Assembly (NCBI GenBank): GCA_012839765.1
Contig: DUMW01000066.1
Span: 1 to 60,101, forward strand
Reading direction: 5' to 3'
Origin: Bacillota bacterium
GTDB taxonomy: Bacteria; Bacillota; Limnochordia; DUMW01
DNA length: 60,101 bases
The notes beneath the pieces were generated by a model. That model was given only the letters and a program-made list of their open reading frames with translations, did no database searches and had not been told where the DNA came from. Below are positions 33,479-60,031 of the stretch, one piece after another (the first letter of the stretch is position 1; every line of letters begins with the position of its first letter). Position numbers and translations under genes: made by a program.

Positions 33479-34390
33479 TTAGTAATCAGTTACCGCTACG
33501 ATCTGCAGGGTGTGCCAATAGTCTTCCCCAGAGGTCTGCTCTTTGCCGATACGGAGGTAGGCCTTTTCGAAATTCTCGATGGGTTCCCGGAAGGGAACGT
33601 TGGTAACCACCGGGGTAGTTAGGTCATCTAGGTAGAGATCGCAGGTTTGACTAGAACAATCGATGACGAACCGAACCCGTACCCAACGATCCTGGGGCAA
33701 GGTGGTGATCCGAGTCCCGTCGTAGAAGGATACAGCCTTGGTGCCCAGATGGAAGAAAAAGGCGGGAGGCCACTTCTCCAGGATAAACCCGGGGCTGTAA
33801 CCTTGGACTTGCTCCGTTACCGATACCTGCCAGTAGTGGAAGTCCAACACGATGATGGGCGAAGCTGTCCCCAGCAATTCCTTGGATTTGATATAGGCCA
33901 TGGCTCCCCGGTGTCCGTGAAGGACCCGCCGGCCGTCTAGCTCATCCACAAGCCACACGGACTCAGACATCTTGGAGGGATCTTCCAAAACAAAGGCCGC
34001 GGGCGGCTTGCCGACAGTGTCGCCGAGGAAGTCGACATAGAAGACAAGTTCTTCCCCCGGTTGGTACAGGTCAATATCTAGCAGGGTATCGGACGAAAGG
34101 GATTCTGGTAATACATAGGTTCGCTTGGTAAAACCCTCAGCTGTAAATTCCAGGGTGCTACCGGGAAGGGCTGTTATCTTGTACCTGCCTTGTTGATCGA
34201 TGGACTCCACTTCGTTGGTCCCGAGTACCCTTACCGTACCTTGGGTCACCGCTTCACCGGTCCGCCAGCACCGTACTTGGCCGGAGATCTCATACTGGAT
34301 CGGTATCGTGACACTGGACAGACAGCTAGGCCCCAGTAACAGCAAGAGTACTAGGGTTACTGCTAGAAAAAGTACCTGTTTCTTGACCAT
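33479..34390 (-). CDS. Exported Ig-like plus LamG-like protein
   Basis: The 303-residue protein has an N-terminal export signal (LLLLLGPSC, a weak lipobox). A carboxypeptidase-regulatory-like beta-sandwich (about 33-115; ISGQVRCWRTGEAVTQGTVRV, GRYKITALPG) follows, then a LamG-like jelly roll (about 120-303) with FHYWQVS, DLYLDDLTTPVVTNVPFREP and a final LQIVAVTDY. It is paralogous to the broken gene 41136-42041 and to the last 270 residues of 55642-58203. It probably binds or orients glycan at the surface. It is the last gene of the operon headed by the solute-binding protein at 38068. Confidence 0.8.
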   Translation of the reverse strand: MVKKQVLFLAVTLVLLLLLGPSCLSSVTIPIQYEISGQVRCWRTGEAVTQGTVRVLGTNEVESIDQQGRYKITALPGSTLEFTAEGFTKRTYVLPESLSSDTLLDIDLYQPGEELVFYVDFLGDTVGKPPAAFVLEDPSKMSESVWLVDELDGRRVLHGHRGAMAYIKSKELLGTASPIIVLDFHYWQVSVTEQVQGYSPGFILEKWPPAFFFHLGTKAVSFYDGTRITTLPQDRWVRVRFVIDCSSQTCDLYLDDLTTPVVTNVPFREPIENFEKAYLRIGKEQTSGEDYWHTLQIVAVTDY

Positions 34391-34500
34391 TGGACGGATA
34401 CTCCCTTCTTATTTGTTGTATTACTCCCCTATCCCCAGGAACACTTTCTGGGGGTAGCATCTGCTGTTCCCGGTGGGATGCCCAAGGCACCCCCTCCCGG

Positions 34501-36807
34501 TTACAGGTCTAAGGGTCGAACAACCACGTCATCGAACCAGATTTTGCCGGTCCCTTTGCCGCTGAGTCGGACGCGCAGGCAAAGGGTGTCGGGCCGGGTG
34601 AACACCACGTCCTCCAGGACGATCCAGTCCGTATTACCCTGGAACTTGACACCCGCGGGCACCAGGTAGCTTCTGGTCTGGGGTTCTTCGTCCAGGGAAC
34701 TGTGCAGTTGGATGTCCAGTCCGCCCGTGATCCCCGGTTCCCCTTCTATTCTCAACGCTACGGAAACATACAGGGCTTGGTTGGGACCGATGTAGAGGGG
34801 CTCAGTGGTTTTTCGATCCGGGATCCCTGGATAGTGGACCGACCAATCCTGGGTATCGGTGTTGACCACCAAGAGGGATTTTTCACCACTGTGGGCAGTG
34901 CTGTCATCAATCCACATTGTGGCCATTCCCCGTTCCCTTTCCCAAAGCTCCCAGTTATCCGGGGCGCGGCCGGCGACATAGGCCTCAAAGTCTCCCCTTT
35001 CCACCAGATTGTCATCCTTTTGGGGAGAATGCATTTGAAAGGGGACACCGTTGACGGTGTTGTTTTCCAGTTCTACTTGGTCGGAATAGAAGATGCGGAT
35101 GCTGTCCCCGGACCCCTGGGTGATGTGGTTATTTCGGACCACTGCCTCTGTGATGTTGTACAGTGTGATGGCCGCACAGGTTGGGTTTTCGATGACGTTG
35201 TCTTCTATGACGACGTTTCTGATCCCTTGACTATCCTTGGGAGCCCGGCCCCGGTCGTTGATGAGCACGGCGATCGCGCTGCCGCCGTGGGGGATCTGTA
35301 GCAAGTGGCCCAGGTCGGAGACGCCCATGTTTTTCAGTACATTCCCCCGGATGACCACATCGAAGGGGATGGGTCCCTCCATCCATTCGGTCTCGGGCAT
35401 AATGGTGATCCCCGCCAAGCTGATACTCTCCAGGGTGTTGTTTTCAATTAGGACCCCCGGTGACTTGATGAGCATCCCCCGGGCCCTGTTGCCGCGAATC
35501 GTGCAGTTGCGCACAATGGCACCTGCTCCGGATCGGCTCAGGGACACCGCCAGATCACCGGGTTTTAGGGCGACGGGAGTGTCCACCCTGGCCCGATATA
35601 CCCCCGGGGAAGGTGGGGATCCTTTGATGTTTTGCCATAGACTGCGCGCCTTTGCCAATAGATCCGCATCAACCACTGGCGTTAGCTCCAAAAGCTGTAC
35701 CTGACCCAGGATCTCCAATGTGCTGGCGTTGACCAGCTGTAGGGTGTCACCCACCTGGGCGGGGATGCTTCCGGATTTTCGGGAAGCCAGGATTAATTCA
35801 TCATCTATGGCCCCCACCACGTAAACGAAGCTACCCTTGATATTGATCGCATCGTCGCCCATCATCTCGAAAAGGCAATCTTCCAACACCGGACCCCGTT
35901 CCATGGCGCCACTGTGAAAGGCATCGGCATTCACCGAAAAGAGCCTTTCCGCCACCGCACCCGCAGGGATCGGTCCGGGAGTGATCTGAATGTTTCGGTA
36001 GGTGTTGCCCCCTCCACCACTTAGCTCCAAGATGCCCATATGGGGGGAACTGTGGATCGTGATGTTTTCGAAAAGGGAGTCTTGTACCCCGTTCAAGTTG
36101 ATGGCAGGGTTTTCATTGCGGTATTCCAGGACAACCCGGTCCCCTTCCACGATGTACGTGTTCTTAGCTTGGTTGGGAAACCAAAGGCGCAGCACATCGT
36201 CGGCAATCCGCTCGATTTGATAGGTCCGCTTGAAGTTAGGGGTTCCCTTCTTAATGGCCCGGGTTTGCGGATCCATGACGATCATATCCAAGGCGTATTG
36301 CCGAAATTGGCTGAGCAATTGGTCATCCTTAGGATAACCAGCATCGATTCTTACATCATACCACTTGCCGCTGGGTTCGCTGCCGATGATCACCCCCTGG
36401 GTGAAGGGCAGCGGATCGTAGTCGATGACCAGATTTCGTAAGGTCAGGTTAGTGGCATTACTGATCCGCAGACCCGCCTCGTGGGAGGTGAAGATGAAGG
36501 TGGCCCCTTGGCCGTCGATGGTCAGATTCTCCACGTTCCGTAGGTGGATGGGCTGATCTATCCGGTGTACCCCAGGTGGCAGCACCACCTTGGACGCGTT
36601 TTTCACCTTGGCCACTTCCACCAGTAATTCCATCATGACCGCATTGAAAGAGGGTTCCCTGATTCCCAGTAAGGCCAGTTGTGCCGGGGTAAAGTCATCC
36701 ATGGAGACCACTCCGCTGGCGTTGGTCTGGCCGGTAAGACACAACACAAGGAAAAGACTCACTAAGACCCCGCCATACCACCTTGTCACTGTCTTTGAAC
36801 TTAGCAT
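34501..36807 (-). CDS. Secreted beta-helix enzyme, GH110-like, with C-terminal CBM
   Basis: The 768-residue secreted protein has a signal peptide (to about TNA). A right-handed beta-helix (about 75-590) is shown by turns such as NLTIDGQGATFIF, RNVVIEDNVIENPT and AVVRNNHI. DAFHSG (295-300) and GDDAIN (317-322) resemble the active-site region of GH110 alpha-1,3-galactosidases. The match is by eye and not certain. A C-terminal sandwich module (about 600-768; NLVERGDFEAYVAG, IWFDDVVVRPLDL) is nearly the same as the N-terminal module of 55642-58203. It is 16 bases downstream of the solute-binding gene. Confidence 0.72.
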   Translation of the reverse strand: MLSSKTVTRWYGGVLVSLFLVLCLTGQTNASGVVSMDDFTPAQLALLGIREPSFNAVMMELLVEVAKVKNASKVVLPPGVHRIDQPIHLRNVENLTIDGQGATFIFTSHEAGLRISNATNLTLRNLVIDYDPLPFTQGVIIGSEPSGKWYDVRIDAGYPKDDQLLSQFRQYALDMIVMDPQTRAIKKGTPNFKRTYQIERIADDVLRLWFPNQAKNTYIVEGDRVVLEYRNENPAINLNGVQDSLFENITIHSSPHMGILELSGGGGNTYRNIQITPGPIPAGAVAERLFSVNADAFHSGAMERGPVLEDCLFEMMGDDAINIKGSFVYVVGAIDDELILASRKSGSIPAQVGDTLQLVNASTLEILGQVQLLELTPVVDADLLAKARSLWQNIKGSPPSPGVYRARVDTPVALKPGDLAVSLSRSGAGAIVRNCTIRGNRARGMLIKSPGVLIENNTLESISLAGITIMPETEWMEGPIPFDVVIRGNVLKNMGVSDLGHLLQIPHGGSAIAVLINDRGRAPKDSQGIRNVVIEDNVIENPTCAAITLYNITEAVVRNNHITQGSGDSIRIFYSDQVELENNTVNGVPFQMHSPQKDDNLVERGDFEAYVAGRAPDNWELWERERGMATMWIDDSTAHSGEKSLLVVNTDTQDWSVHYPGIPDRKTTEPLYIGPNQALYVSVALRIEGEPGITGGLDIQLHSSLDEEPQTRSYLVPAGVKFQGNTDWIVLEDVVFTRPDTLCLRVRLSGKGTGKIWFDDVVVRPLDL

Positions 36808-36823
36808 GGGCTGTTCCCCCCTC

Positions 36824-38068
36824 CTATTGCTGGAACAGTACGTTGGCCTGGAAAGTCAGTTGGCGTAATCCCTGGGCCGGTTCCACCTGACCGTTGAAGA
36901 TCGCCAGCATCTGCTGTTGGAAGATCTTCTGGAAGTTTTCCCAGTGGAGGTTTACCGGTGAGGCCTTGGCGATCTCAAAACCGATATTGTACGCGGTTAT
37001 GTTGTAGGGTGGTTCCACGGGATACTGAAATTCGGGGCTAGCCACCAGTTCTTGGAGGGAAGGAATCACATGGCCAAGCTGCACCATCTTCTCTTGGGCA
37101 TAGGGACCGGAACAGAACTTCACGAATTCCCACGCGGCATCTACATAGGGACATGTCTGGGAGATCAAGTAGGCGTCGGAGCCGAGGGTGGTGGCCCGAC
37201 CGCCGGGACCGCCCGGCACCGGGGCGATATCCCAAGGAAATTCGATTCTCCTGAAGTCCGGTACCATCCAGGGACCTCCCAGGTAAAAGCCCACATCACC
37301 ATTTTGGAAACGGGCGGCGGAGCTCAAAGGAGCGATGGCCTGACGGTTATGCAGGGCATCGTAGAGAAAATCCACCGCCTCCATGGCCGGCTGTTCACTC
37401 AAAAGACACTGGGTACCGGTCTCGTCGATGAACTCTGCACCGAAGGCATAGAAGTAGGGAGCCATGCGGGTCAAGGTGGCTTCTATCCTCCAGCCCCAGA
37501 TATCAATGACGCCATCGCCGTGGAGATCTACGGTCATCTTGCGGGCCTGATCCCGCATGTCGAAAATATCCCAGTGGGGATCAGGATAGGGAAGCCCAGC
37601 CCGGTCCAGTTCTGCTTTGTTGACAAACAAAGTGAAGGGTTGAATATCCCGAGGGATGCCATAAACCTTGTTTTCATAGGTGTGGGCGCCTACGGCTGCG
37701 GGGATATAGGCGTCTAGTGAAAACTCAGGATCCACCTGGATCAAACTATCCAAGGGCCGGAAGACACCTTGCATGATCAAGGACAAAGACCGCTGATATT
37801 CCATCACACAAATATCGGGAGTTGTACCACCGAGCACCATGACCAACAGGCGATCAATCCAATCGCCACCCCCGGCGGTAAGGTCGATGAGCTCGATCTT
37901 GATGTCGGGATGTTCCCGTTGGAACTCTTCGATTAATTCTTCGTAGATCTTAAGTTCACCACTAATGCCCTTAAACCCAAAAGTGATCTGCTTTTCCTGG
38001 GCCTGTAACGACGCCGTCAAAAGGATCACCACGACGAGACTAAACCCGATCCAGTTCCAATGTTTCAT
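36824..38068 (-). CDS. ABC-type solute-binding protein, GFKGI subfamily
   Basis: The sugar-binding protein of about 414 residues has a plain Sec signal (to about LQA-Q) and no lipobox. ITFGFKGISGELKIYEELIE begins the mature protein and marks a subfamily shared with 48012-49265 and 58222-59460. TVDLHGDGVIDIWGW looks like a calcium loop. FYLGGPWMVPDFR and YDALHN are also conserved. The ATG at 38068 follows GGAGGGGG; a longer frame is less likely. It is promoter-proximal behind a strong promoter and a possible LacI operator, with a leader of about 270 bases. Confidence 0.92.
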   Translation of the reverse strand: MKHWNWIGFSLVVVILLTASLQAQEKQITFGFKGISGELKIYEELIEEFQREHPDIKIELIDLTAGGGDWIDRLLVMVLGGTTPDICVMEYQRSLSLIMQGVFRPLDSLIQVDPEFSLDAYIPAAVGAHTYENKVYGIPRDIQPFTLFVNKAELDRAGLPYPDPHWDIFDMRDQARKMTVDLHGDGVIDIWGWRIEATLTRMAPYFYAFGAEFIDETGTQCLLSEQPAMEAVDFLYDALHNRQAIAPLSSAARFQNGDVGFYLGGPWMVPDFRRIEFPWDIAPVPGGPGGRATTLGSDAYLISQTCPYVDAAWEFVKFCSGPYAQEKMVQLGHVIPSLQELVASPEFQYPVEPPYNITAYNIGFEIAKASPVNLHWENFQKIFQQQMLAIFNGQVEPAQGLRQLTFQANVLFQQ

Positions 38069-38312: not shown

Positions 38313-38333
38313 TGTATGCAATCGATACATACA
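38313..38333. promoter_or_regulatory. Candidate LacI operator
   Basis: TGTATGCAATCGATACATACA is an imperfect 21-bp palindrome; seven of ten pairs match, including the six outer ones. It lies immediately after the -10 element of the promoter for the solute-binding gene, a place where a repressor would block transcription. The LacI gene 38618-39580 is the neighbouring candidate binder. Confidence 0.6.
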
Positions 38334-38346
38334 ACTGTATATATTC

Positions 38347-38617: not shown

Positions 38618-39580
38618 TTATTTCTCACAACCGCAGGATTGTCTGCAGATCAACTCGCCGGGCACCACTAGTTGCGCGTAGGAATACTTTCCGTTGGTCA
38701 AGTCTTTCAGCAGTTGGCCGGCGCTTTCTCCAATCTTCTGGAAAGGCACATCGATGGTGCTAATGGTGGGATTAGTCCTTTTGCTGCGTTGGAGGTTGTC
38801 GCAGCCGAGTAGGGCGAAGTCCTGCGGGACCCGGAGGCCCAATGCGGAGGCGACCCGGAGCACATTGGCGGCCAGCACATCATTCTCGGCCAGTATGGCG
38901 GTGGCCTTCTTACTGACGGTACGCACCACCTCTGTAAGGTCTGTGCTCCGTTCAACACTGACTATCTCCAGTTGTCCCCCAATTTCCTCTACGGCTTCTT
39001 TGCAGCCTTCTAGACGCATCTTGGACCAAGTTTTCATCGGCTGTACGTAGATGTAGGCGAAGCTGGTGTGTCCATGGCCGTGCAAGTGCATGGTGGCCTC
39101 GTAAAAGGCCCCGTGGTTGTCAAAGGATACGGCGGAAACCCGCCGGTCGTTACTTTCCCGGTTTAGGATGACACACTTGATGCCGTGGTTTACCAAGGCC
39201 TGCAAGACCGGATGGTCTGCTTCACCGCCGAAAAAGATGACACCGTCGATTTCCTCTGAGCCGTTGGTGATGGAGCTGATGGGAAATGCTTCCGGGTTTG
39301 AGGCGGCGGCGACCAGACAAATGGCGTCTCCCAAAGAGGTCTTTATCCCTTCATAAAAGCCGTTGTAGACCTCACTCTCGCTAATACTGCCATCGGGGCA
39401 TACCACAGCTAAACGGGTTTGTCTTTCGGTATCTGGAAAGACATAGCCCATTTCCTTGGCGATGGCGATGATCCGATGGCGGGTCCTTGGAGACAAGGTT
39501 CCCGTATTCCTCAGGGCTTGGGAGACGGCACTGACCGATACATTTGCTCTTTGGGCAATATCCTTCATCAATACAGCCAT
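38618..39580 (-). CDS. LacI family regulator
   Basis: The 320-residue repressor has an N-terminal helix-turn-helix (MKDIAQRANVSVSAVSQALR, from about residue 5) and a ligand domain with DGVIFFGGEADHPVLQALVN, AILAENDVLAANVLRVASAL and DFALLGCDNL. The unusual C-terminal tail CRQSCGCEK has three cysteines. The truncated paralog at 59525-60031 ends in RRSCGCK, so this tail is a subfamily mark. It precedes the solute-binding gene and probably controls it via the operator at 38313. It has its own extended -10 promoter. GGAG precedes the ATG. Confidence 0.93.
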   Translation of the reverse strand: MAVLMKDIAQRANVSVSAVSQALRNTGTLSPRTRHRIIAIAKEMGYVFPDTERQTRLAVVCPDGSISESEVYNGFYEGIKTSLGDAICLVAAASNPEAFPISSITNGSEEIDGVIFFGGEADHPVLQALVNHGIKCVILNRESNDRRVSAVSFDNHGAFYEATMHLHGHGHTSFAYIYVQPMKTWSKMRLEGCKEAVEEIGGQLEIVSVERSTDLTEVVRTVSKKATAILAENDVLAANVLRVASALGLRVPQDFALLGCDNLQRSKRTNPTISTIDVPFQKIGESAGQLLKDLTNGKYSYAQLVVPGELICRQSCGCEK

Positions 39581-39627
39581 CGTTCACACTCCGTTAAATG
39601 CAACGAATATATCAACTTCATGTAATC

Positions 39628-39781: not shown

Positions 39782-40828
39782 TTATTGTCCTTCCAAGCGG
39801 GCGATTTCGGTACAGGCCCACATTAACGGTGCCACCCCGTGGAGATCTCCAGTCCTGGTGGGCCTGGTCAGGTAATATTCTAAGGTGTAGCCCACGTTGG
39901 TACCGATACACACATTGGTGAGTTGACCTTGGTCATCCAATTTGGCCTGTAATCCGGCAAAGCCCGCCAAGGCTGCTTCTTTGAATGCTTCGAGCATGGC
40001 TTCTGGAGCCCAGCGGTGATTGTAGCCCGCGGCCAGGGCATAGACAAACATGGCCGTTGATGATGTTTCGGCGTAGGATTCGGGATGATCGATCAACTGG
40101 TGCCACATTCCCGCTTCATCTTGGTAGGGCAGGATGCTCATCATGAAGTCTTGGTACATTGCCAACAGGGTTCTATAACCGGGGAAATCCTCGGGGATGG
40201 TTTTTAGTACCTCCACCAGGGCCACCGCGACCCAACCATTGGCCCTACCCCAACTAAAGGCTGAGTCCTGGGTGTGCTGAAAAAGGCCGTTGTCTTTCTG
40301 CAAAGCTTCTTTATAGGCGGTAAACTGATTCACCACCAGGGTGAGATAGGAATCCCGTTGTAATAACACCCCCGCCAAGGCTACCAGTGGACAGGTCATA
40401 TAAAGATCATCGGCCCAAAACCGACTGTGTTTCATGATGGTGTCAGTTCCGCCCACCAGGTCGATGACGCTACGGTAGGCCAGGTGCAGGTACTGGGTAT
40501 CGCCGGTTAAACGGTATAGCTCCAACATAACCAAGGCAGGCATGTCCTTATCCACATGGCCCGTGGGGATCTGGGAGGAGTGGAAACCCGCCGCCCACTC
40601 TTGCACAATCCTTAGGTACTCTTCTTCGCCGGTGAGTTCATAGACCTTAAGCCCCCCGATCAAAGCAATGGCATCGGAGTAAAACCAAGTGTAGTCGGTC
40701 CTCAAGTACTGCTTGGCTAAGGTATGGGCTAGGTCCCAGGCCTCTTTGGTTACCGTTGTCTTGGCAGAAAGGGGTACCACCAGGCCCAAAAGCGATAGCA
40801 GTAACATGGTCACTATGATTCTTTTCAA
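39782..40828 (-). CDS. Exported GH105 unsaturated uronyl hydrolase
   Basis: The 348-residue (alpha/alpha)6-barrel enzyme matches GH105, which removes the 4,5-unsaturated uronic acid left by polysaccharide lyases on rhamnogalacturonan or similar oligosaccharides. Key segments are RFWADDLYM (Asp140 aligns with the catalytic Asp of YteR-type enzymes), SWGRANGWVAVAL (192-204), YAETSSTAMFVYALAAGYN and HGVAPLMWA. It has a Sec signal peptide (to about LSA), whereas many GH105 enzymes are cytoplasmic. The start is TTG 40828, preceded by GGAAGGAG. It is the last gene of a locus that also holds lyase-like and CBM proteins. Confidence 0.88.
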   Translation of the reverse strand: MKRIIVTMLLLSLLGLVVPLSAKTTVTKEAWDLAHTLAKQYLRTDYTWFYSDAIALIGGLKVYELTGEEEYLRIVQEWAAGFHSSQIPTGHVDKDMPALVMLELYRLTGDTQYLHLAYRSVIDLVGGTDTIMKHSRFWADDLYMTCPLVALAGVLLQRDSYLTLVVNQFTAYKEALQKDNGLFQHTQDSAFSWGRANGWVAVALVEVLKTIPEDFPGYRTLLAMYQDFMMSILPYQDEAGMWHQLIDHPESYAETSSTAMFVYALAAGYNHRWAPEAMLEAFKEAALAGFAGLQAKLDDQGQLTNVCIGTNVGYTLEYYLTRPTRTGDLHGVAPLMWACTEIARLEGQ

Positions 40829-41135
40829 GGATTACACTCCTTCCCTTTAATGATGACCCTGCGGAGGGTGCCTTCGGCGGCATCCTTCGGTGGTGTTGTG
40901 TACCGGCTGTGTGTGCCAGAGCCCACCCGGGAGGTGAAGCAAGTCGAGGAATTCAGATCACGGTTGACGATCGAACAAAGGCTGAATACTAGAATGTACC
41001 CTATGTGGATATCCAGTACATATCGGCTCGGTCTAAATGCACGCCCTTTGGTCGGGACACGGGCAGAACACGATCTTTAACTTGAAGGTGCCCGGTGAAG
41101 GGAAAATCCCCCACCGGGCAAACAGGATAGTCCCC
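40829..41135. other. Intergenic region upstream of the GH105 gene
   Basis: In these 307 bases the only clear structure is the hairpin at 41090-41119 after the broken LamG-like gene. No promoter for the GH105 gene could be fixed, and no gene is visible. Confidence 0.4.
41090..41119 (-). terminator. Hairpin after the broken LamG-like gene
   Basis: GCCCGGTG and CACCGGGC form an 8-bp stem about 17 bases after the stop at 41136. No strong T-run follows. The stem is nearly identical to the one after the paralogous gene at 33479, so gene and hairpin seem to have been copied together. Confidence 0.5.
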
Positions 41136-42041
41136 TCAGTATTGGGTCACTGCTACAATCTGAATGGTACGGAAATAGTCTTCACCGTAGTCAGACTCCT
41201 TACCGATTCGGAAGTATGCCCTTTCGAAGCTGTCTAAAGGTTCCCGGAAAGGCATATCCTGAACGACGGGCGTGCTAAGATCGTCCAGGTAGAGATTAGA
41301 GGTCTGACTCTCTACGTCTATGACCAGCCGGACCCGCACCCATTGATCCGGGGGTAGCGTCGTCTTCGTGCCATCTTGAAAACCGACGGCCTTAGGAGAC
41401 ATTGAGAAGTACACGGCCGGCGGCCACTGCTCAAGGAGATAGCAGTGGGTATAGCCGTTTGGTTGTGGCTCCTGGGATACCTGCCAATACTAAAGGTCAA
41501 CGACGAGCAGTTTGGCATCGGTTTCCAGTAGCTGCTTAGATTTGATATAAGCCAAGGCCCCATGGGTGCCGTGGAGGACCCGTCTGCCATCCATCTCCTT
41601 CACTAGCCAGACGGTATCGTCCATAGTGCTGGGAATTTCCAGGATGAAGGACTCCGGTGGTTGTCCGATCTGGTCCCCCACGAAATCCTCATAGAAGACC
41701 AGCTCTTCTCCTGCTGTAAACAGGTCGATATCCACCACTACATTCCCCGCCAATGACTCTGGTACCGCGTAGGTCCGCTTGCTATATCCAGGGCTTTCGA
41801 TCTCTATGGTACTGCCTGGGGTAACGGAGACTTTGTAGTTGCCCTGGGCATCGATGGCAACCGTTTCCTTGCTGCCGACCACCTTTATGGTACCCTGGGT
41901 GACTGGTTCCCCGGTTCTCCAGGCCCGGACCTGTCCGGAGACTTCGTAACGTACCGGTTCCGGAATGCCAAGTAAGCAACCTGACATGAGGATGAGGGAG
42001 AGTACCAGTAACACACCGCGATGAATCTTCCCCTTTTGCAT
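41136..42041 (-). pseudogene. Ig-like plus LamG-like lipoprotein with internal TAG
   Basis: One reading frame encodes a paralog of 33479-34390, but an in-frame TAG at 41490-41492 interrupts it. The sequence reads LLVVDL-stop-YWQVS, where the paralog has VLDFHYWQVS, so one codon position is a stop. Both sides are well preserved: lipobox LMSGC and EVSGQVRAWRTGEPVTQGTIK before the stop, and LYLDDLSTPVVQDMPFREPL after it. This fits a recent nonsense mutation or base-call error. The first part alone (183 residues) would be a lipoprotein with the Ig-like domain only. TAG serves as a normal stop elsewhere in the window (for example 11733). Confidence 0.85.
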
Positions 42042-51012: not shown

Positions 51013-51036
51013 GCACGGGCCCAAGGGGGCCCGTGC
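51013..51036. other. Intercistronic 10-bp hairpin
   Basis: GCACGGGCCC and GGGCCCGTGC form a perfect stem with loop AAGG. It lies 11 bases after the solute-binding gene stop (51048) and upstream of the 50983 start. No T-run follows on the minus strand, which fits an mRNA-stabilising or partial-termination element. Confidence 0.6.
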
Positions 51037-51047: not shown

Positions 51048-52343
51048 CTATCGATCAAAGTAGGCCCGGAGTTCTTCTTGGGCGATATCCCTCTCGGCCA
51101 TTTCTTGCACCTGCGTCATGGCCACCGCCGGACTGATCGCGTTCGCATAAAAGATCTGCTCTAGCATCTGCTCATAGAGGGTATTCGACAGAAACTCCAC
51201 CCCACCGGGGGCTCCTGCGGGATTGGGTTTGCCAATGCCCTCGATGTAGTTTTGCATCACCGCCTGCCACATCTCCGACTGGAAGTAGGGATCGGTTACT
51301 GCTTCATTGACTACGGGGAAGAAATCGGCGGCGATGCGGTTGTAATCCAGATTCCGCTCTCGGGCCAAGTAGACCATGAACTCGAAGGCGGCCTCCTTGT
51401 CGGAAGCAGTCTTGAACATGATCAGGTTTTCTCCGCCCATGTTGGCATAGGGTTGACGGCCGCTGGGGCCAACGGGCGGAAGGAAGGTACCAAGGTTCAG
51501 GTTGGGATTACTGCTCAACAGGAAGGAGAAAGACCAGGGACCTTCGGTCAACATGGCTACGGTACCCATGGCCAGACCATCGGTGCCAAGCTTTCCCTCC
51601 GGTGCTCCCAAGTATCCCGCCACCCGGAAGTTGTGGGTCAGATCATACAGGTATTCCAAAGTCTCGATCAGGGCCGGATCGGTGTAGTACGCCTCGGTAT
51701 AATCCTCATTAAAGGAGATCCAACCATTGCGCTCGGCCCAATGGTTGACCGTTCGTGCGTAGCTTCCTCCCAGCCCGCCATGGGTGCGGAAAGAATAGCC
51801 CCACCGTTCCAGCTGTCCGTCGGCGGAACGTTGCGTCAGCTTACTGGTGGCAAAGGCAAAGTCATCCCAGGTGGTGGGCACTTCGGCGATGGCCGCCTCT
51901 TCAAACAGGTCTTTGTTGTAGATAATGACCTGGGAGTTGGCCCTAAAGGGTAACCCCATCATCTGGCCTCCGTAGATCTGGGCGTCCCAGTGGGCCGGCC
52001 AGAAATCAGCAGGATCGATCACGTCACTGTTGGCGATGAATTCATCTAAGGGTTGGATGGCATCGGTCAAAGCTTTGAAGAAGCCGAGATTGCCCATGGT
52101 CACATCGGGCCCAACCCCACCGATGATAGCCACGATCCATTGGTCGATCCCCGGGGCCCCCACCACGCGCATCTGCACTTTGATGTCGGGATGTTCCGCC
52201 TCAAAGTCTGCAATGAACTGTTCCATGATCTTGACCTGATTATCCGCGCCGTAGAACCAAAAATTGACCGTGCGTTGTGCCGACACCGGTAGACAAATGC
52301 AGAACAAGAGTATGAAGCTGATGAGCAACTTTTTGTCTTTCAT
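51048..52343 (-). CDS. ABC-type extracellular solute-binding protein
   Basis: The 431-residue sugar-binding protein has a Sec signal (to about PVSA-Q) and no lipobox. TVNFWFYGADNQVKIMEQFIADFE starts the mature part. GGVGPDVTMGNLGFFKALTDAIQPLDEFI and AYARTVNHWAERNG-like segments fit family-1 binding proteins. It is not of the GFKGI subfamily. The ATG follows GGAGGAGA. It stands between the 790-residue barrel-like protein gene and the cytoplasmic lyase-like gene. Confidence 0.91.
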   Translation of the reverse strand: MKDKKLLISFILLFCICLPVSAQRTVNFWFYGADNQVKIMEQFIADFEAEHPDIKVQMRVVGAPGIDQWIVAIIGGVGPDVTMGNLGFFKALTDAIQPLDEFIANSDVIDPADFWPAHWDAQIYGGQMMGLPFRANSQVIIYNKDLFEEAAIAEVPTTWDDFAFATSKLTQRSADGQLERWGYSFRTHGGLGGSYARTVNHWAERNGWISFNEDYTEAYYTDPALIETLEYLYDLTHNFRVAGYLGAPEGKLGTDGLAMGTVAMLTEGPWSFSFLLSSNPNLNLGTFLPPVGPSGRQPYANMGGENLIMFKTASDKEAAFEFMVYLARERNLDYNRIAADFFPVVNEAVTDPYFQSEMWQAVMQNYIEGIGKPNPAGAPGGVEFLSNTLYEQMLEQIFYANAISPAVAMTQVQEMAERDIAQEELRAYFDR

Positions 52344-52492
52344 CTTGTCTCCTCCCGTGTTTCGGCTCCAAGAGCCCTATGGTCCAGACCTTTCCCTGTA
52401 CTGTACACCTTCAGTGCGGTTCTTGAGCCAATGGTTTAGCGATCACAACAATCCTTGGTTCTAGGCACCACCGTCCAATTACTACTCCCTGT

Positions 52493-54808
52493 TCACCTCC
52501 CCTGTGGAACTACATAAACCTGGAGGGAAAGGGGCGCCAGAGACATATTTTCCGGATCGACCCTTTCACCGGTAATCCGATCCTGTAAATGGGGCCACTT
52601 TTCACTCAAATCCAGTTGGACACTGGACAAGGTTGTATTGATCACCGCTAGTTTTCCCGAAGGATAAAGTCGTAAGGTTACGCCCGGCTCTGTCGTAAGC
52701 ACGGTGCTCTCTCCCACCGGTAGAAGATAGTACTGACACAGAAACTCTTTCCATTGTTGGGGAAAACCCCGGTGGATGGAGGTGTATGCTTCCCTATACA
52801 ACACCACCGGATCCCCGGCGGCCAAGGCCAGGACTTCGCTGAGGTGACTGTAGGCTGGGCCACCGTGCTCAAAGCTAGGGGCGATCCGGGCATAGGGGAA
52901 TCCGTCCCAGTTGTATTCTATATACATCGGGCCTACGCTCACCGCCACACCATCCTTGGTGGCACAGGCCGATACATATGCCGGTTCACCGGCATTCCAA
53001 GCCTGGTCGATGGGAACCAGTACAAAGACGTTCTCCAACTCCCGGAAGGCGGCGGGGTTCATCCCCCACTCCCGTTCTGTAAGCCAGGTAAGGGGCGACC
53101 GCTCTCCTTTGGTAGCCATCCCTTCACTACTAAAGGGGCTATAGTAAAGCTTGGCGTCGTATTGCTGCAGATAATCCGCAATCTGCTGCAAAAACTCAGC
53201 TAGCTTCTCATACCACCAGAGCATATAAGGGTGCTGGGCAGCGGCGCCAACGGAAAAGCCGGGCTGATCAAAGGGCAAGGACAGCTCCGCAGCCAAAGTG
53301 GCCCGCTTCTCATCGAAAGTATCGCCCGGGATCTGGTTGCCGGTCTCCTGTTCATAGCGCAACAGATCCCGATCCCCAAAGGAAGGGGCGAGGTAGCCGA
53401 GCCGGTTCCGCAGATAGATTCCTTTGATCTGTTCTTTGTATTCCTCTGCCGCGTTGAATAGAGTCTCAATGACGTGGATGAGATCATCCACCGCGGCCTG
53501 CTCCAGGATATTCACCGCGTGGTAGTAGCCACTACCGTGTCCCCCTACCCGGTGATAGACCTCCTTATAACTCACCCCGAAGGGGGTGATGGCCAGGGCC
53601 TCCGCCGGGATATTCGTGCTTCCGCCGTACTCAATGCGGGGAATTACCGCCATCTGATGCTCTGCCGCGATCCTTAGTAGATCCCGCAGGCCGAGGAAAC
53701 TGGCGCTGGGGTAGGTGTTCCATGGGATCAGGTTAGGTGAGATTGCGTTGGCGCCGTAGGTCCTGGCTTTTACGATCTCCGTTTCCCAACTGTAACGGGG
53801 TCCCTCCACGGTCCAGATGTGCATTCTCTCGGAACTGGTCCGCAGGTCGTCCAGTAGCGGATCGAAGAGCACGTCATAGTCAGGGAGGTCGTACAACCGC
53901 AAGGTCTTGACCGCAATCCCATTATTTGTGGGATCATTTCCTTTGTTAAGGAAGTAGAGCCAAATCCCGTTGCTGAGCGGTCCCTTGTGGTGAAAGCCCA
54001 CCTGGGGCCAGGCTATGATCCAATAACTGGAAAAGCCTCCGCTCAAGGGGAATTCCTGGCGGTTTTCCGGTGTGTAGGTCCGTTCGTCCTCCGTTTGGTA
54101 GACTCCCGTGTGGAAGGCCAGGTGTCCGCCGGTTTGGGCGCCGCCCACATCCAGTAGGGCCATCAGGTAAGCCCGGGGTACATCCTCGGGATAGACCACT
54201 TCAATCAGGTAGGGTTTTTCCTCGAGATATCCCCTGCCCAACCGATAACCAAACCAGGCGTTGGCTCCCTTGGCGAACCGAACCTGTTCCCCAAGGCAAG
54301 GCCCCACATAGATGAATTGGCCCCCTTCCTCGTAACAGTACTTTTCCGTGGGTTCTGCTAGATCGATCTCATCGATGATGGGTAACGGTCCAAAGGGGGT
54401 TATCCCCTCGCCAAAGGATAAGGGTGCCAGGGCCGGTATGGCATTGAGTTTCAGATTCTGTACCTGTTTACGGGCGATGATCTGTCCTGCCTGGAGTACT
54501 TCGATGTCCACATCTACTCCCCGGGCAAAGCTGGCAAAACCGCCGGCGAGGTCTATGCTTACCTTTGGCCGACCAAACTCCAAAGTACCATGCCATGTAT
54601 ACTCAGTCTCGCTCAGCCTCACCCGGACGGTGGCCGCGTCGATAGCTTCCGTATTCATGAAGGGTATCTCCAAAGAAACCTCGATCTCGTCAAGATACTC
54701 CTTCAATCCCTCTTTGGTGAGCAAAGCGGGTTGACCGATGAAGACATCGGCAAAGGCCGTACCGGTGAAAAGTAACACCGTGAACAAAGCGATGAACCAG
54801 TGGCGCAC
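52493..54808 (-). CDS. Large secreted barrel-like protein, unassigned
   Basis: The protein of about 771 residues has a signal peptide (VRHWFIALFTVLLFTGTAFA). Beta-rich regions follow (to about 310), then a section that reads like a (beta/alpha)8 barrel: RYSWETEIVKARTYGANAIS, LRDLLRIAAEHQMAVIPRIE, YKEQIKGIYLRNRLGYLAPS and LEFLQQ-like helices ending in AKLYYSPFSSEG. The C-terminal beta domain is PGVTLRLYPSGKLAVINTT. It looks like a glycosidase, but no family was recognised. The GTG at 54808 is chosen since AGGAGGGG stands seven bases before it; a longer frame runs into the upstream gene. Confidence 0.75.
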   Translation of the reverse strand: MRHWFIALFTVLLFTGTAFADVFIGQPALLTKEGLKEYLDEIEVSLEIPFMNTEAIDAATVRVRLSETEYTWHGTLEFGRPKVSIDLAGGFASFARGVDVDIEVLQAGQIIARKQVQNLKLNAIPALAPLSFGEGITPFGPLPIIDEIDLAEPTEKYCYEEGGQFIYVGPCLGEQVRFAKGANAWFGYRLGRGYLEEKPYLIEVVYPEDVPRAYLMALLDVGGAQTGGHLAFHTGVYQTEDERTYTPENRQEFPLSGGFSSYWIIAWPQVGFHHKGPLSNGIWLYFLNKGNDPTNNGIAVKTLRLYDLPDYDVLFDPLLDDLRTSSERMHIWTVEGPRYSWETEIVKARTYGANAISPNLIPWNTYPSASFLGLRDLLRIAAEHQMAVIPRIEYGGSTNIPAEALAITPFGVSYKEVYHRVGGHGSGYYHAVNILEQAAVDDLIHVIETLFNAAEEYKEQIKGIYLRNRLGYLAPSFGDRDLLRYEQETGNQIPGDTFDEKRATLAAELSLPFDQPGFSVGAAAQHPYMLWWYEKLAEFLQQIADYLQQYDAKLYYSPFSSEGMATKGERSPLTWLTEREWGMNPAAFRELENVFVLVPIDQAWNAGEPAYVSACATKDGVAVSVGPMYIEYNWDGFPYARIAPSFEHGGPAYSHLSEVLALAAGDPVVLYREAYTSIHRGFPQQWKEFLCQYYLLPVGESTVLTTEPGVTLRLYPSGKLAVINTTLSSVQLDLSEKWPHLQDRITGERVDPENMSLAPLSLQVYVVPQGR

Positions 54809-54840
54809 GCTGGTACCCCTCCTTTCCCTTAAGGTCTGGT

Positions 54841-54867
54841 GAGTGACCGGATTTACTCCGGTCACTC
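54841..54867. other. Intercistronic 11-bp hairpin
   Basis: GAGTGACCGGA and TCCGGTCACTC form a perfect 11-bp stem with a 5-nt loop. It overlaps the stop codon of the 54862-55542 gene and ends just before the ribosome site of the next gene. No T-run follows. Confidence 0.6.
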
Positions 54868-55542
54868 CTCTTCCACCGAAACCCTGATCCGTCCAAAGTC
54901 ATAACCTGCATAATTATGACGGTCTACGATGACCAGCTGGTTAAACTCACCGAGGGGTACACCGGTAAGGTCGCCACTGGCGATCCTTCCACTGGCCACC
55001 TGCATACCATCCCGGTACAGCCAAAGACTTCCGTTGCGTTCAATGACGAACTTGATGGTAATCCACTCGCTTGTCTGATCCTCCTGATAGCCGGGAGTAA
55101 GTTTCAGCGTAGAGGAGGAATCACGGTAGATGTTGATGAATTGGTACTTCCAATCCATGATGCCTGCATAGACGTGGATTCCATAGCCGTCCCGGGTGTC
55201 CTTGTTCAGCAGATACAGTTTGAAGTACCCGTTGGGAGAATACCGGTGGAGGCGGTAGTCCAGTTCTACGATGATCTTTGTCACATTACTGGTGGGCCCT
55301 AAGACAACCGTGGGAATTTCCCTTTGCGCGGTGGCGTTTTCCACTCCCATTGGTGCTCGCAAGAAACCGTTATCTTCTTCATGGTACTCCCACTCCGCCT
55401 GGGTGCCGGGAATGAACAGCTCCCAGGGGGTGAGGGAATCAGAGGTGAGATCGTCCTCAAAAACAACTGCCGACTGGGCTGAGGCTACTGCGACACTCCA
55501 CAACAGAACAAACATGATGATAGACCACCTGTTTTTTCTCAT
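54862..55542 (-). CDS. Secreted LamG/DUF1080-like protein
   Basis: The 226-residue protein has a signal peptide (to about ASA-QS) and one jelly-roll domain: VVFEDDLTSDSLTPWELFIPG, KIIVELDYRLHRYSPNGYFK, EWITIKFVIERNGSLWLYRDG and YDFGRIRVSVEEE. The pattern is like DUF1080/LamG modules, which bind or cleave sugars, but it lacks the DLxTPVxxxxPFR motif of the other LamG-like proteins here. It is probably an accessory glycan-binding protein. Confidence 0.72.
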   Translation of the reverse strand: MRKNRWSIIMFVLLWSVAVASAQSAVVFEDDLTSDSLTPWELFIPGTQAEWEYHEEDNGFLRAPMGVENATAQREIPTVVLGPTSNVTKIIVELDYRLHRYSPNGYFKLYLLNKDTRDGYGIHVYAGIMDWKYQFINIYRDSSSTLKLTPGYQEDQTSEWITIKFVIERNGSLWLYRDGMQVASGRIASGDLTGVPLGEFNQLVIVDRHNYAGYDFGRIRVSVEEE

Positions 55543-55641: not shown

Positions 55642-58203
55642 CTACTCATCTAGGGCCACAATGTACAAATTGGCCCAGTAATCCTGTCCATAACCTTCCT
55701 CTTTCCCCAGGCGGAAATAGGTATTGTTCAGATTGTCGATGGGAGTCCGGAAGGGGATCCCCTCCTTTACTGGGGTGGACAGGTCGTTTACGTAAAGATC
55801 TGCCGTATTTGTTCTTCCATGGAGGATCATCCGTACCCGAATGAAGTCCCCCGTGGGCACGCTCACCTTTGTTCCGTCGGAAAAGGAGATGGTATCCTTC
55901 AGCATCGTAAAGTGGAAGGCCGGGGGCCAATCCCGCAGGAGGTAACCATGGGTGTTGGTGCTGGTGTTTCCCGCCGGACCGGCAAGGTAGTAGAAGTCGA
56001 TGGCCACCTTATCCGCGGTGATGGTCATCGGGTTGGTTCGGATGTAGGCCAGTTCCCCTGGTCCGCCCCAGAGTACCGGTCGGCTGTACACACGGCCCAC
56101 CTGCCAGACGGCTTCCGACATGGTGCTGGGGTTTTCCAGGCCGAAAGAGGGCGGTAACTTACCCGTGGCATATCCTTCGAAGTTGGCCGCAAAGACCAGC
56201 TCTTCCCCGGTTTGGAAAAGATCGATATCGATCACCACATTGCCCACAAGCGCGTCCGTTAGGGCAATGGTCCTGGGGCTATAACCCGGGGCGCTCACCT
56301 CTAAGGTGGCACCGGCGGGCAGTGATAGATCGAAGTAACCTTCGTTATTTACTGTATAGGTTTCCTCGGTATCTACGACCAACAAGGTGGCCTCCGGTAC
56401 CGGTTCTCCTGTCCGCCAACTGCGTACCTGACCACGTAGATTGACGTTGTCTTCCCTCTGCACCATTAAAGATGATACGTCGGCCCAAACCAATCGGGTC
56501 CCTGCGGCATCGGATTGGGCCCAATAGACATGGGTTCCATTGGGTGCAAAGGCCGGGTGGGGATGGTCCGAGGAACCCCGTTGCCACTGGTTTCTGGCAA
56601 TGCGATAGATCTTACCTGTTTCCAGATGAACCAGGAGAATATCTCCCTGGTGGGTGTCGGTCACCGCCCACTGGCCATCGGGACTGGGGGAGGCGTGCCA
56701 GATAACGGGTAGTCCCTGGGCGGAATCGCTATAGGCCCGCCCTACTCCCAGGCGGTCGGTGGTGATGGACCAATCGGGATAGTCTTCCACCACCGCCCGA
56801 GCACGCAGCTCCTTGGCCGCGGGTGAGAGAATCTGATCCGAGTCGCCGGATACGGGGGTGATCAACCGAAAACCCGTATTATCCTTGTCGATGATCCCAA
56901 GTCCAATGGGATGTAGCACAAAGGTGACAAAGGTGCCGTCATAGGACCAGCACTCGTGGGTAACCCAGTCTTCGGGCCGCTGATCGTATAAGGGACGTAG
57001 ACCACTGCCGTCGGTATTGATTAGCCACATTCGCTGGGGGATCATCCAGTCACCCCGCTGGTCGCAGAACATCAGGGTTTCATCCTCCGCCGGATTCCCC
57101 TGCAGATGGGTAATCCATTGGAAAGGAAGATCCCCTAGGGATTCCACGGTGCCAGAGACTAGATCCACCTTCAAAATGTGGTACTTCCCTGTCAGCCTTT
57201 CCACCGCGGGTAAATATAGGGCGTTGTCGCTTTTGGTGAAGGTGGGATGGCCGAGGTTCGTCCATTGGGCGTCGAACCTGGTTACAGGGGTCATGTTCTC
57301 CCCGCTGGGGAAATCTACGGAAAACAGGAAGCTTCCACGAACATAATATAGCTTGGTACCCGAAGGATTCAGACAACAGCTGCCGGTACCTACCCCCGGC
57401 ACAAGCATCCGTTCTTGGCCGGTGGTGAGATCCAATACGTAAATACTGGTTACTCCTGCCCGTTGTCCTTGATACCAGAGGTAATTACTATCAGGGGAAA
57501 AGGCCCGATGGGTATAATACACGTGATTGTCCCTTGGACCGGGGGTAAGGACTTCTACTGGCACGGGTGCCTCTTCAATGAGCACTTGCACTTGGGTAGC
57601 CTCCTTTACTGCGGATGCATCGGCGGGGCGCACCACAACATCATCAAACCATACCTTGCCGGTACCTCCGCCGCTTAGACGTACGCGAATGCAAACTGTA
57701 TCAGGATCGGTGACTATTACGTCCTCTAAAAGAACCCAATCGGTGTTGCCCCGGACCCGCGTACCAGAAGGATAGAGATAGCTTCTGGTTTGGGCGTTTT
57801 CATCGGGGGAACTGTGTTGTTGGATATCCAAAGCGCCCCAGGTTTGATCGTCGCCTTCCACTTTTATGGCCACCGAAACATATAGGGCCTGATTGCCACC
57901 CACGGGCAAGGGATCGGTGGTACGGTTGTCTGGAATTCCCGGGTAGTGGGCAGACCAGTCCTTTGTTCCTGTGTTGTGGATGAGCAGGGATTTGTTGCCA
58001 CTGAAGCTGGTACTGTCATCCACGTAAATCTGGCCCAGGCCCCGTTCCCTTTCCCAAAGTTCCCAGGATTCAGGGGTCTCTCCCACTGCGAAGGCTTCAA
58101 AGTCACCATTCTGCACAAGGTTTTCCTCGGCCGAAACCATGCCGGCCGAGAAGACGAGGAGAAAAACAAGGAGTATTCCAAGGATGTTACACAATCTGCC
58201 CAT
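55642..58203 (-). CDS. CBM, PL22-like propeller and LamG-like fusion
   Basis: The 853-residue secreted protein has a signal peptide (to about VSA). An N-terminal sandwich CBM (25-195; NLVQNGDFEAFAVG, VWFDDVVVRPAD) is nearly the same as the C terminus of 34501-36807. A beta-propeller (about 225-580) resembles oligogalacturonate lyase (PL22): His416 in THECWS, His503 and the HPH pair His547/His549 match the metal site expected for that family. An Ig-like domain (about 588-670) and LamG-like jelly roll (to 853) match 33479-34390. PL22 enzymes are usually short and often cytoplasmic, so this exported multi-module form is unusual. Confidence 0.8.
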   Translation of the reverse strand: MGRLCNILGILLVFLLVFSAGMVSAEENLVQNGDFEAFAVGETPESWELWERERGLGQIYVDDSTSFSGNKSLLIHNTGTKDWSAHYPGIPDNRTTDPLPVGGNQALYVSVAIKVEGDDQTWGALDIQQHSSPDENAQTRSYLYPSGTRVRGNTDWVLLEDVIVTDPDTVCIRVRLSGGGTGKVWFDDVVVRPADASAVKEATQVQVLIEEAPVPVEVLTPGPRDNHVYYTHRAFSPDSNYLWYQGQRAGVTSIYVLDLTTGQERMLVPGVGTGSCCLNPSGTKLYYVRGSFLFSVDFPSGENMTPVTRFDAQWTNLGHPTFTKSDNALYLPAVERLTGKYHILKVDLVSGTVESLGDLPFQWITHLQGNPAEDETLMFCDQRGDWMIPQRMWLINTDGSGLRPLYDQRPEDWVTHECWSYDGTFVTFVLHPIGLGIIDKDNTGFRLITPVSGDSDQILSPAAKELRARAVVEDYPDWSITTDRLGVGRAYSDSAQGLPVIWHASPSPDGQWAVTDTHQGDILLVHLETGKIYRIARNQWQRGSSDHPHPAFAPNGTHVYWAQSDAAGTRLVWADVSSLMVQREDNVNLRGQVRSWRTGEPVPEATLLVVDTEETYTVNNEGYFDLSLPAGATLEVSAPGYSPRTIALTDALVGNVVIDIDLFQTGEELVFAANFEGYATGKLPPSFGLENPSTMSEAVWQVGRVYSRPVLWGGPGELAYIRTNPMTITADKVAIDFYYLAGPAGNTSTNTHGYLLRDWPPAFHFTMLKDTISFSDGTKVSVPTGDFIRVRMILHGRTNTADLYVNDLSTPVKEGIPFRTPIDNLNNTYFRLGKEEGYGQDYWANLYIVALDE

Positions 58204-58221
58204 GCTATTCCCTCCCGTTTT

Positions 58222-59460
58222 TTACTGGAATGTGAAGATGAGGTTTGTTTCAAAGGCTAACTGTCCCAATGCCTGGGAGGGACTCATCAGCCCGGACAAA
58301 GCCAAGTTCATTTGTCGTTGGAAGATCTCTTGGAAGTCTTCCCAATAGAGGTTTACCGGTGAAGGCTTGGCGATCTCAAAACCGACGTTATATGCCTCCA
58401 CGTTGTAGGGACGATTTGTGGGGTTTTGGAATTCCGGCCCGGCCACAAGTTCGGTGAGCGAAGGGATCACGTGCCCTAGTTCTACCATCTTCGCTTGCGC
58501 GTAGGGCCCCGCCAGGAACTTGACGAACCGCCAGGCGGCATCCACATGGGCTGTCTGTCGGGAAATAAGGTAGGCGTCGGAACCGAGGGTAGTCCCCCAT
58601 CCTCCGGGGCCCTTGGGCACTACGGCAATGTCCCAGTCGAAGGAAAGCTTCCGGAAGTCCGGCACCATCCAGGGCCCACCTAGATAGAAGCCGACATTGG
58701 CGTTCTCAAAGCGCGGGCTGACGGTCAAAGGCGCCAGGGCGTTGTATGTATGCATGGCATCGTACAGGAACTGAAGGGCGTCAATGGCTTTTTGATCATC
58801 GAGCAGACACTGGGTGCGGGTTGCATCGAGGAACTCTGCCCCGAAGGCGTGGAAAAATGGTGCCAATCGGGTGAGGGTGATATCCACTCGCCAACCCCAG
58901 ATGTCCATGACCCCATCTCCGGAGGTATCGAAGCTCATCTTTCGGGCCAGATCCTGCATTTCATAGATGTCCCAATCGGTGGTGGGATAGGCCAAACCTG
59001 CTCGGTTTAGTTCATCCTTGTTGACAAAGAGAGTGAAGGGTTGGATTTCCCGGGGGATCCCATAGAGCCTTCCTTCGTAGGTATGGGCGTTCACCGCCGC
59101 GGGAATATAGTCATCCAGGGAAAAGGTCTGATCCTGTTTGATCAGTTCATCGAGGGGCATGAAGACGTTCTGGATAATCAATGGGATCGATTGTTGGTAC
59201 TCCATCACACAAACATCGGGGGTTGTTCCGCCAATGGTCATCACCAAGAGCTGATCCAACCAATCTCCACCGCCGACGAGGTTGATCAAGGTCACTTCCA
59301 CGTCAGGATTGAGCCGCTGGAACTCAGCAATTAGTTCATGGTAAATCTCCAACTCTCCCTGGATACCCTTGAAGCCGAAGGTGATCTGGGTCACCTGGGC
59401 GTGGGTGGGTATCACCGCCAATAGCAATGCGACCAGAACCAGCTTACTTACTTGTCTCAT
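58222..59460 (-). CDS. ABC-type solute-binding protein, GFKGI subfamily
   Basis: This 412-residue protein is the closest relative of 36824-38068. Its signal peptide ends near THAQ and has no lipobox. QITFGFKGIQGELEIYHELI starts the mature part, and SFDTSGDGVMDIWGW looks like a calcium loop. FYLGGPWMVPDFRKL and PSPVNLYWEDFQEIFQRQM are shared. The ATG at 59460 follows AAGGAGG; a longer frame reaches into the LacI fragment. It is followed 18 bases later by the PL22-like fusion gene. Confidence 0.92.
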   Translation of the reverse strand: MRQVSKLVLVALLLAVIPTHAQVTQITFGFKGIQGELEIYHELIAEFQRLNPDVEVTLINLVGGGDWLDQLLVMTIGGTTPDVCVMEYQQSIPLIIQNVFMPLDELIKQDQTFSLDDYIPAAVNAHTYEGRLYGIPREIQPFTLFVNKDELNRAGLAYPTTDWDIYEMQDLARKMSFDTSGDGVMDIWGWRVDITLTRLAPFFHAFGAEFLDATRTQCLLDDQKAIDALQFLYDAMHTYNALAPLTVSPRFENANVGFYLGGPWMVPDFRKLSFDWDIAVVPKGPGGWGTTLGSDAYLISRQTAHVDAAWRFVKFLAGPYAQAKMVELGHVIPSLTELVAGPEFQNPTNRPYNVEAYNVGFEIAKPSPVNLYWEDFQEIFQRQMNLALSGLMSPSQALGQLAFETNLIFTFQ

Positions 59461-59524
59461 GGCTAGCCTCCTTCCTTGGCGGTTCATCTTTGGATGGTTT
59501 GACCTCCCTGTTTTGGAAACAGAT

Positions 59525-60031
59525 TTACTTGCAGCCGCAGGATCTTCTGAGAATGAGTTTACCGGGTACGTGTAAGTTGCCGAAGGCCAGTTCACCGGAA
59601 ACCAGGTTTCTCAGCAGATCCCCAGCGATCTCCCCGATCCGATGGGCCGGCACATCAATGGTGCTCAGACCTGGTTTGCATTCAGCTCCCACCGCGAGAT
59701 TGTCACAGCCAAACACGGCCACATCCGCGGGTACCCGAAGCTGCATTTTCTGCAAACACTGGATCACGTTCACCCCGATCACGTCGTTTTCTGCCAGGAT
59801 TGCCCTAACTTCTTTCGCGACCTTTGTGACTTGGTGCTCTAGACTCTTGGATTTGGAGATACCGATTTCTCGAAGGGTTCCACCTCCCTTGGCAATGGCT
59901 TCTTGACAACCTTTGAGGCGCATCTTAGACCAGGTGGTCATCGGCTCTGCATAAATGTATGCAAAGTCTTTATATCCGCCTTGACCCCCTAGTTTTGGAG
60001 AATATGCTTGTACTTCATCTACATATCGCAT
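59525..60031 (-). pseudogene. Truncated LacI family regulator
   Basis: The 168-residue frame is only the C-terminal half of a LacI regulator. It has DFAYIYAEPMTTWSKMRLKG, RAILAENDVIGVNV, DVAVFGCDNLA and LSTIDVPAHRIGEIAGDLL, and ends in RRSCGCK like 38618-39580. The DNA-binding domain and about 158 residues are missing. An in-frame TAG at 60047-60049 stands six codons before the first ATG, and homology appears to end near there. It is either a truncated pseudogene or a small inactive protein. Confidence 0.75.

Follow-up and report, generated by a model that had tools for sequence, protein, structure and literature searches.

Orphan solute-binding proteins (SBPs) of the tripartite tricarboxylate transporter (TTT) family, known as 'Bug' proteins, have expanded in Bordetella, Cupriavidus and Rhodoplanes, and it has been proposed both that they share one membrane component and that they serve in sensing (PMC5994714). 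In bifidobacteria, family-1 SBPs occur without full transporter sets, and the paralogues have been suggested to use the membrane components of other loci (PMC8110962). Polysaccharide utilization loci (PULs) of gram-positive bacteria (e.g., Paenibacillus and Roseburia) combine an enzyme and a regulator with an SBP and two permeases, and the SusCD-based PULs of Bacteroidota are likewise built of modules, with surface binding proteins and with enzymes that are swapped. Here we describe a window of 60,101 bases, the complete contig C66 of a 2.56-Mb draft genome (121 contigs, 95.9% complete), in which three polysaccharide loci (loci 1 to 3) lie on the minus strand within a single 27-kb stretch (33479-60031). 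The view that they are copies of one duplicated cassette with an exchanged catalytic part is well supported, and none of them encodes a permease.

The Bug expansions are the closest known case, being lineage specific and comprising dozens to hundreds of periplasmic SBPs with few membrane components. They consist of TctC-fold proteins and TTT transporters, whereas the SBPs considered here are of the ATP-binding cassette (ABC) type (SBP_bac_1/8) and are encoded with carbohydrate-binding modules (CBMs), LamG proteins and carbohydrate-active enzymes. The bifidobacterial SBPs are similar in that paralogues are thought to borrow membrane components from other loci, but they are few per genome, belong to monoderms and are not part of a cassette with lectin-like proteins. 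With gram-positive PULs, the three loci have in common a local regulator, an SBP and extracellular carbohydrate-active enzymes (GH110-like, GH88/105 and PL22-like). The regulator, of the LacI family, had been assigned to two loci in an earlier note on this DNA; it is complete in locus 1 and absent from locus 2, and in locus 3 only the C-terminal half, lacking the helix-turn-helix, is present. Unlike in those PULs, there is no complete ABC importer; the SBPs stand without permeases, and the membrane part is apparently encoded centrally. No SusC or SusD Pfam match was found in loci 1 to 3, and only the CarboxypepD_reg-type domain is shared with the PULs of Bacteroidota.

The colinear gene order on the minus strand and most of the domains described in the earlier note were borne out by open reading frames (ORFs), Pfam matches and alignments. 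Locus 1 runs from LacI through an SBP and a GH110-like helix with a CBM to a CarboxypepD_reg-like plus LamG-fold protein. Locus 2 has an SBP, seven CBM_4_9 modules distributed over three proteins, a CarboxypepD_reg plus LamG gene and a GH88/105 gene, while locus 3 has a LacI fragment, an SBP and one 853-amino-acid (aa) protein joining a CBM, a PL22-like propeller, CarboxypepD_reg and LamG. Similarity between corresponding modules was far beyond chance. Identities were 67, 49 and 45% among the SBPs, with the highest value between loci 1 and 3, and 58, 44 and 41% among the CarboxypepD_reg-like plus LamG-fold modules. The sensor parts of the two LacI proteins were 50% identical, and these proteins were mutual best hits. 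The CBM, which the note counted among the shared modules, is indeed common to loci 1 and 3 (65%; E value, 4e-73) but by these only, as the CBM_4_9 modules of locus 2 are 25 to 28% identical to it and represent a different branch. Thus, the close kinship of modules on which the note had staked its case was found for the SBP and LamG parts and not for the locus 2 CBMs.

The three SBPs, all with a GFKGI motif, formed a single clade, both among 160 SBPs of the class (Shimodaira-Hasegawa support, 0.98) and in a 22-protein IQ-TREE analysis (96.5/99), with the locus 1 and locus 3 proteins as a sister pair (99.9/100). Nearest to the trio were another SBP of the window genome, on contig C7, and an SBP in genome G001; no close relative in a named genome was found above 22 to 31% identity. 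The LamG trio had only remote relatives in the 73 class genomes (E values no better than 1e-6), and its tree instead paired loci 1 and 2 (96.9/97), with an approximately unbiased test giving a borderline result for the SBP-like topology (P = 0.050). This conflict hints at reassortment of modules, and long-branch attraction is also possible; because the locus 3 branch is long and the outgroup remote, reassortment is taken as a hint rather than as proof. A recent duplication was rejected, since four-fold sites differ at 49 to 70% between the copies; the duplications are therefore old.

The catalytic parts of the three loci belong to different folds and families, with no relationship among them. 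The locus 1 beta-helix, recognized as GH110-like in the earlier note, matched GH110 structure 7jw4 (phmmer, 9e-20) with the DD and NRARG motifs aligned. It has the beta-helix with the catalytic Asp pair region expected of GH110, and its activity is predicted; the pair reads DD in locus 1 and ND (Asn for the first Asp) in the 7jwf chain. In locus 2, where CBM repeats, an (alpha/alpha) domain and GH105 had been noticed and were all recovered, the alpha/alpha part is made up of 11 to 12 helices, after which come beta strands. Its model, of low confidence (predicted local distance difference test score [pLDDT], 52), had PL8 chondroitin AC, xanthan and hyaluronate lyases as top Foldseek matches, and there was a weak NCBIfam HylB match (1.5e-4), so a PL8-like lyase is probable. 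The classical enzyme pair for uronic-acid polysaccharides consists of a PL8-like lyase and, after it, a GH88/105 protein. The locus 3 propeller, placed as the note had it between the CBM and the LamG part, matched Pectate_lyase22 (1e-18) and the oligogalacturonate lyase of PDB entry 3c5m (3e-15), with the histidines of THE and HPHP aligned.

On C7, the gene for the clade's fourth SBP comes directly after that for a 992-aa homologue of the locus 2 lyase (E value, 5e-57). This supports exchange of the enzyme after duplication, as the note had suggested, and it indicates that the SBP-lyase pairing is probably older than those with GH110 and PL22. The set of an SBP, a small secreted LamG protein and a large secreted protein, often with LacI, recurs at window positions 7757-19231, on contigs C64 and C101 and in genome G003 (L260 and L263), each time with other enzymes. 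Hence, recurrence of the cassette, as claimed in the note, is supported, and the search of related genomes that it called for was positive in G003. Taken alone, the duplication of a cassette and the exchange of its enzyme are nothing unusual in the evolution of PULs.

Neither loci 1 to 3 nor the recurrent cassettes encode a permease, and no PF00528 protein is encoded on the whole window contig; this lack, and the fact that it is a property of the lineage, did not figure in the earlier note. SBPs were counted with profile PF01547 and ABC permeases with PF00528 at the Pfam cut-off. The genome has 55 PF01547 matches and 50 matches to the locus 1 SBP versus 10 permease proteins, namely, two oligopeptide-type pairs (C31 and C22), a C7 pair accompanied by an ATPase and an SBP of its own and two sugar pairs resembling UgpA/UgpE (C109 and C46). 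The C109 pair adjoins a 997-aa protein whose C-terminal end is a full SBP domain (L121:9697-12690). The C46 operon (L144:5921-14394), in the order NHL-DUF5696-permease-permease-DUF4340, has no SBP, and one is therefore needed from elsewhere. For 47 SBPs without a permease within 4 kb, no permease-like pair was found among 270 neighboring ORFs; the idea that permeases had been missed or had diverged was rejected by counting transmembrane segments in these neighbors. A signal-peptide-like N terminus was seen in at least 40 of the 47 orphan SBPs and a lipobox in none, which fits the periplasm of a diderm. Limnochordia, probably the class of the genomes compared here, are diderm Firmicutes (PMC11456536). 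A lipid A cluster (LpxA, LpxB, LpxC, LpxI-like and FabZ-like) with an LptD-like protein was recognized by eye on C17 (L147), and the organism therefore looks diderm.

The excess is not confined to one genome. Searches for relatives of the window genome at the genus, family and order levels returned that genome only. In a count of first-look SBP candidates versus first-look permease candidates, 8 of 73 class genomes (G000 to G004 and G059 to G061, from four families) had 2 to 10 times as many SBPs as permeases, the median ratio of the others being 0.30. Scoring with PF01547 gave 58 to 78 SBPs versus 13 to 26 permeases in G059 to G061 and at least 83 SBPs versus 12 to 30 permeases in G001 to G004, while comparison genomes G014, G031, G065 and G066 had 36 to 49 SBPs and at least 39 permeases (113 to 152 first-look permease candidates). 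In neighborhoods fetched with both flanks, a permease lay within 4 kb of 12 SBPs and was missing for 60 in the eight excess genomes, versus 25 and 2, respectively, in ten other class genomes. Orthologues of the C46 permease (57 to 68% identity) were present in 11 genomes, that is, in all eight excess genomes (61 to 68%) and in 3 of the 65 others (Fisher P value = 1.2e-8, for genomes that are not phylogenetically independent). Several relatives have a conserved SBP-permease-permease-NHL-DUF5696-permease-permease cluster that includes the C46 orthologue; there, one SBP and a further permease pair stand ahead of the counterpart of the C46 operon. No report on DUF5696 or on such an expansion of ABC sugar SBPs was found in the open-licence literature.

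Our favored reading, which we hold to be fairly probable, is that loci 1 to 3 are old tandem paralogues of a glycan-capture cassette whose enzyme was exchanged and whose SBPs feed a shared permease encoded elsewhere. Its extension to a hub-and-spoke system, in which every genome of a diderm Firmicutes lineage has roughly 50 to 150 sugar SBPs of the ABC type, each in an enzyme and lectin cassette of its own, that feed one or two conserved CUT1 permease pairs of the DUF5696-NHL operon type, is put forward more tentatively, at somewhat short of an even chance. Each spoke would comprise a regulator, a periplasmic SBP, a CBM, an enzyme and a CarboxypepD_reg-LamG lectin-like protein, and the three loci would be among several dozen permease-less SBP loci of a lineage that may have lost most of its dedicated sugar permeases. 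The secreted CBM and LamG proteins would hold a given polysaccharide while the enzyme of the locus cuts it; the cassette's own SBP would capture the product in the periplasm and, once loaded, dock on the shared CUT1 pair, either that of C46, with its DUF5696, DUF4340 and NHL proteins, or that of C109. LacI may control the operon where it is present. A new substrate would then require only duplication of a cassette and a changed enzyme and SBP, with no new membrane parts.

Several observations count against this model. No ATPase of the MalK/MsmK type was found next to the C46 pair or the C109 pair, and a candidate on C5 was rejected as an exporter-type ABC protein. The C46 orthologue also occurs in G006, G064 and G065, which have no SBP excess, and its association with the excess suffers from the shared phylogeny of the genomes; for the largest genomes, the SBPs counted are first-look candidates. 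In locus 2, the LamG gene is interrupted by a single in-frame TAG (41490-41492), beyond which the frame is still homologous. Docking on and transport by the shared permease are predicted from gene counts and context, and passage of polysaccharide across the outer membrane is not explained by the hub model.

An alternative is that the permease-less SBPs are glycan-capture proteins acting near the enzymes, much as SusD does for SusC, with uptake by unrelated transporters. The ratio of about 25 SBPs to each sugar permease pair would suit such a role, as would the company of CBM and LamG proteins, which are themselves binding proteins, and the fused 997-aa SBP that already serves one of the sugar pairs. 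The SBPs have nonetheless kept full-length SBP_bac_1/8 domains, and the C46 operon must obtain an SBP from elsewhere, so we regard this alternative as unlikely. Less likely again is a sensing role, in which SBPs carrying a ligand would signal to membrane receptors and these would turn on the enzyme genes: such a role has been proposed for orphan TTT-family SBPs (PMC5994714), and this genome does fuse SBPs to a GntR DNA-binding domain, but no sensor kinase was seen in loci 1 to 3, and the LacI regulators encoded there respond to a cytoplasmic ligand of their own.

We give the least credence to an ordinary tandem duplication of gram-positive polysaccharide loci whose permeases are missing because of breaks between contigs or because a draft genome is decaying. 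The assembly is indeed in 121 contigs and incomplete, with stops in one LamG gene and in a few SBP genes on other contigs. However, the genome-wide PF00528 search yielded 10 proteins only, neighborhoods with full flanks were free of permeases, and the same inversion was found in seven other genomes, some of them in 20 to 60 contigs.

The substrate range for carbohydrates is usually thought to widen when complete transporters or complete PULs are gained. If one permease pair serves many SBPs, the soluble parts alone would determine specificity, and duplicating a cassette and exchanging its enzyme would be a cheap route to new substrates, a process of which loci 1 to 3 would be a frozen example. 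The orphan-SBP phenomenon would then reach beyond the TTT transporters of Proteobacteria and include ABC sugar importers associated with the degradation of polysaccharides. The inverted ratio of SBPs to permeases can be measured from genomes, and because the permease-less context is common to eight of them, the loci are worth following.

Table 1. Features of the window discussed in the text, by position
Position	Strand	Feature	Basis
7757..19231	-	Permease-less set: SBP, LamG_3 protein, 1139-aa protein, LacI, LamG protein, 1303-aa protein	
33479..34390	-	Locus 1 CarboxypepD_reg-like + LamG/lectin-fold protein, 303 aa	Pfam; AlphaFold2 + Foldseek
34501..36807	-	Locus 1 GH110-like beta-helix (about residues 60-590) + C-terminal CBM (598-767)	phmmer, alignment
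36824..38068	-	Locus 1 GFKGI SBP, start at MKHW, signal peptide, no lipobox	SBP_bac_1 2e-29; tree
38313..38329	-	Candidate LacI operator TGTATCGATTGCATACA, between LacI and SBP of locus 1, upstream of SBP	Imperfect palindrome
38618..39580	-	Locus 1 LacI-family regulator, complete, 320 aa	Pfam LacI + Peripla_BP_3
39782..40828	-	GH88/GH105-type unsaturated-glucuronyl-hydrolase-like protein (locus 2)	Glyco_hydro_88 3e-61
41089..41120	-	9-bp perfect stem-loop, 3' of locus 2 LamG gene	Stem-loop search
41137..42041	-	Locus 2 CarboxypepD_reg + LamG gene	Pfam, alignment
42068..45715	-	Locus 2 three CBM_4_9 + alpha/alpha + beta-sandwich catalytic part	Pfam, Foldseek
45784..46851	-	Locus 2 second double CBM_4_9, 71% to the preceding double CBM_4_9	Pfam, alignment
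46926..47993	-	Locus 2 double CBM_4_9, lipobox ILAGC, predicted lipoprotein	Pfam, sequence
48012..49265	-	Locus 2 GFKGI SBP	SBP_bac_8 6e-44
49313..50983	-	556-aa protein, no obvious signal peptide, no family hit	Pfam/NCBIfam, PDB searches
51013..51036	-	10-bp perfect stem-loop between locus 3 and locus 2 units	Stem-loop search
51048..52343	-	Second, more distant SBP, 24% to GFKGI SBPs	Alignment
52493..54865	-	790-aa secreted protein, no family hit	Pfam/NCBIfam, PDB searches
54862..55542	-	Small secreted LamG-like protein, downstream of locus 3	Match to LamG-family profile of cassettes
55642..58203	-	Locus 3 CBM + PL22-like propeller + CarboxypepD_reg + LamG, 853 aa	Pfam, PDB
58222..59460	-	Locus 3 GFKGI SBP, start at MRQV	67% to locus 1 SBP
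59525..60031	-	Locus 3 LacI, C-terminal half, 168 aa, no helix-turn-helix	Peripla_BP_3 1e-25

The AlphaFold2 model of the 303-aa protein of locus 1 (pLDDT, 82) has an N-terminal Ig-like domain and a jelly roll, which Foldseek aligned with L-type lectins (e.g., soybean agglutinin and Emp47) over about 220 to 250 columns; no sequence relative of the LamG family profile was found in PDB. The putative operator TGTATCGATTGCATACA has one copy in the window versus 0.09 expected. A common LacI operator was sought across loci 1 to 3 and not found, this candidate occurring at locus 1 only.

The contig end at 60101 lies 70 bases upstream of the locus 3 LacI gene, which lacks its DNA-binding half, so a cut by the draft assembly is possible. 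LacI similarity starts about 70 to 130 bases from the contig end (59525-60101), and the preceding bases are not in the LacI frame; therefore, the contig end may be misassembled or the gene broken. On the basis of the stem-loop between the two units, the genes at 51048-55542 (an SBP, the 790-aa protein and the small LamG protein), which the earlier note had passed over, were assigned to locus 3, and the 556-aa protein was assigned to locus 2, of whose unit it is probably the first gene. Neither the 556-aa nor the 790-aa protein had a sequence relative in PDB.

An SBP domain follows a GntR DNA-binding domain in two proteins (L043:14759-16144 and L099:4720-6084), presumably cytoplasmic sugar-sensing regulators. 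Such fusions were rejected as the cause of the SBP excess, since they account for 1 of the 47 tabulated orphans and one more beyond these. SBP genes with in-frame stops were seen at L006, L010 (C68) and L028 (C31), and part of the SBP set may therefore be decaying. The 1139-aa and 1303-aa proteins of the set at 7757-19231 are paralogous and have no Pfam hits, and a third paralogue, of 1137 aa, adjoins an SBP on C101 (L119).

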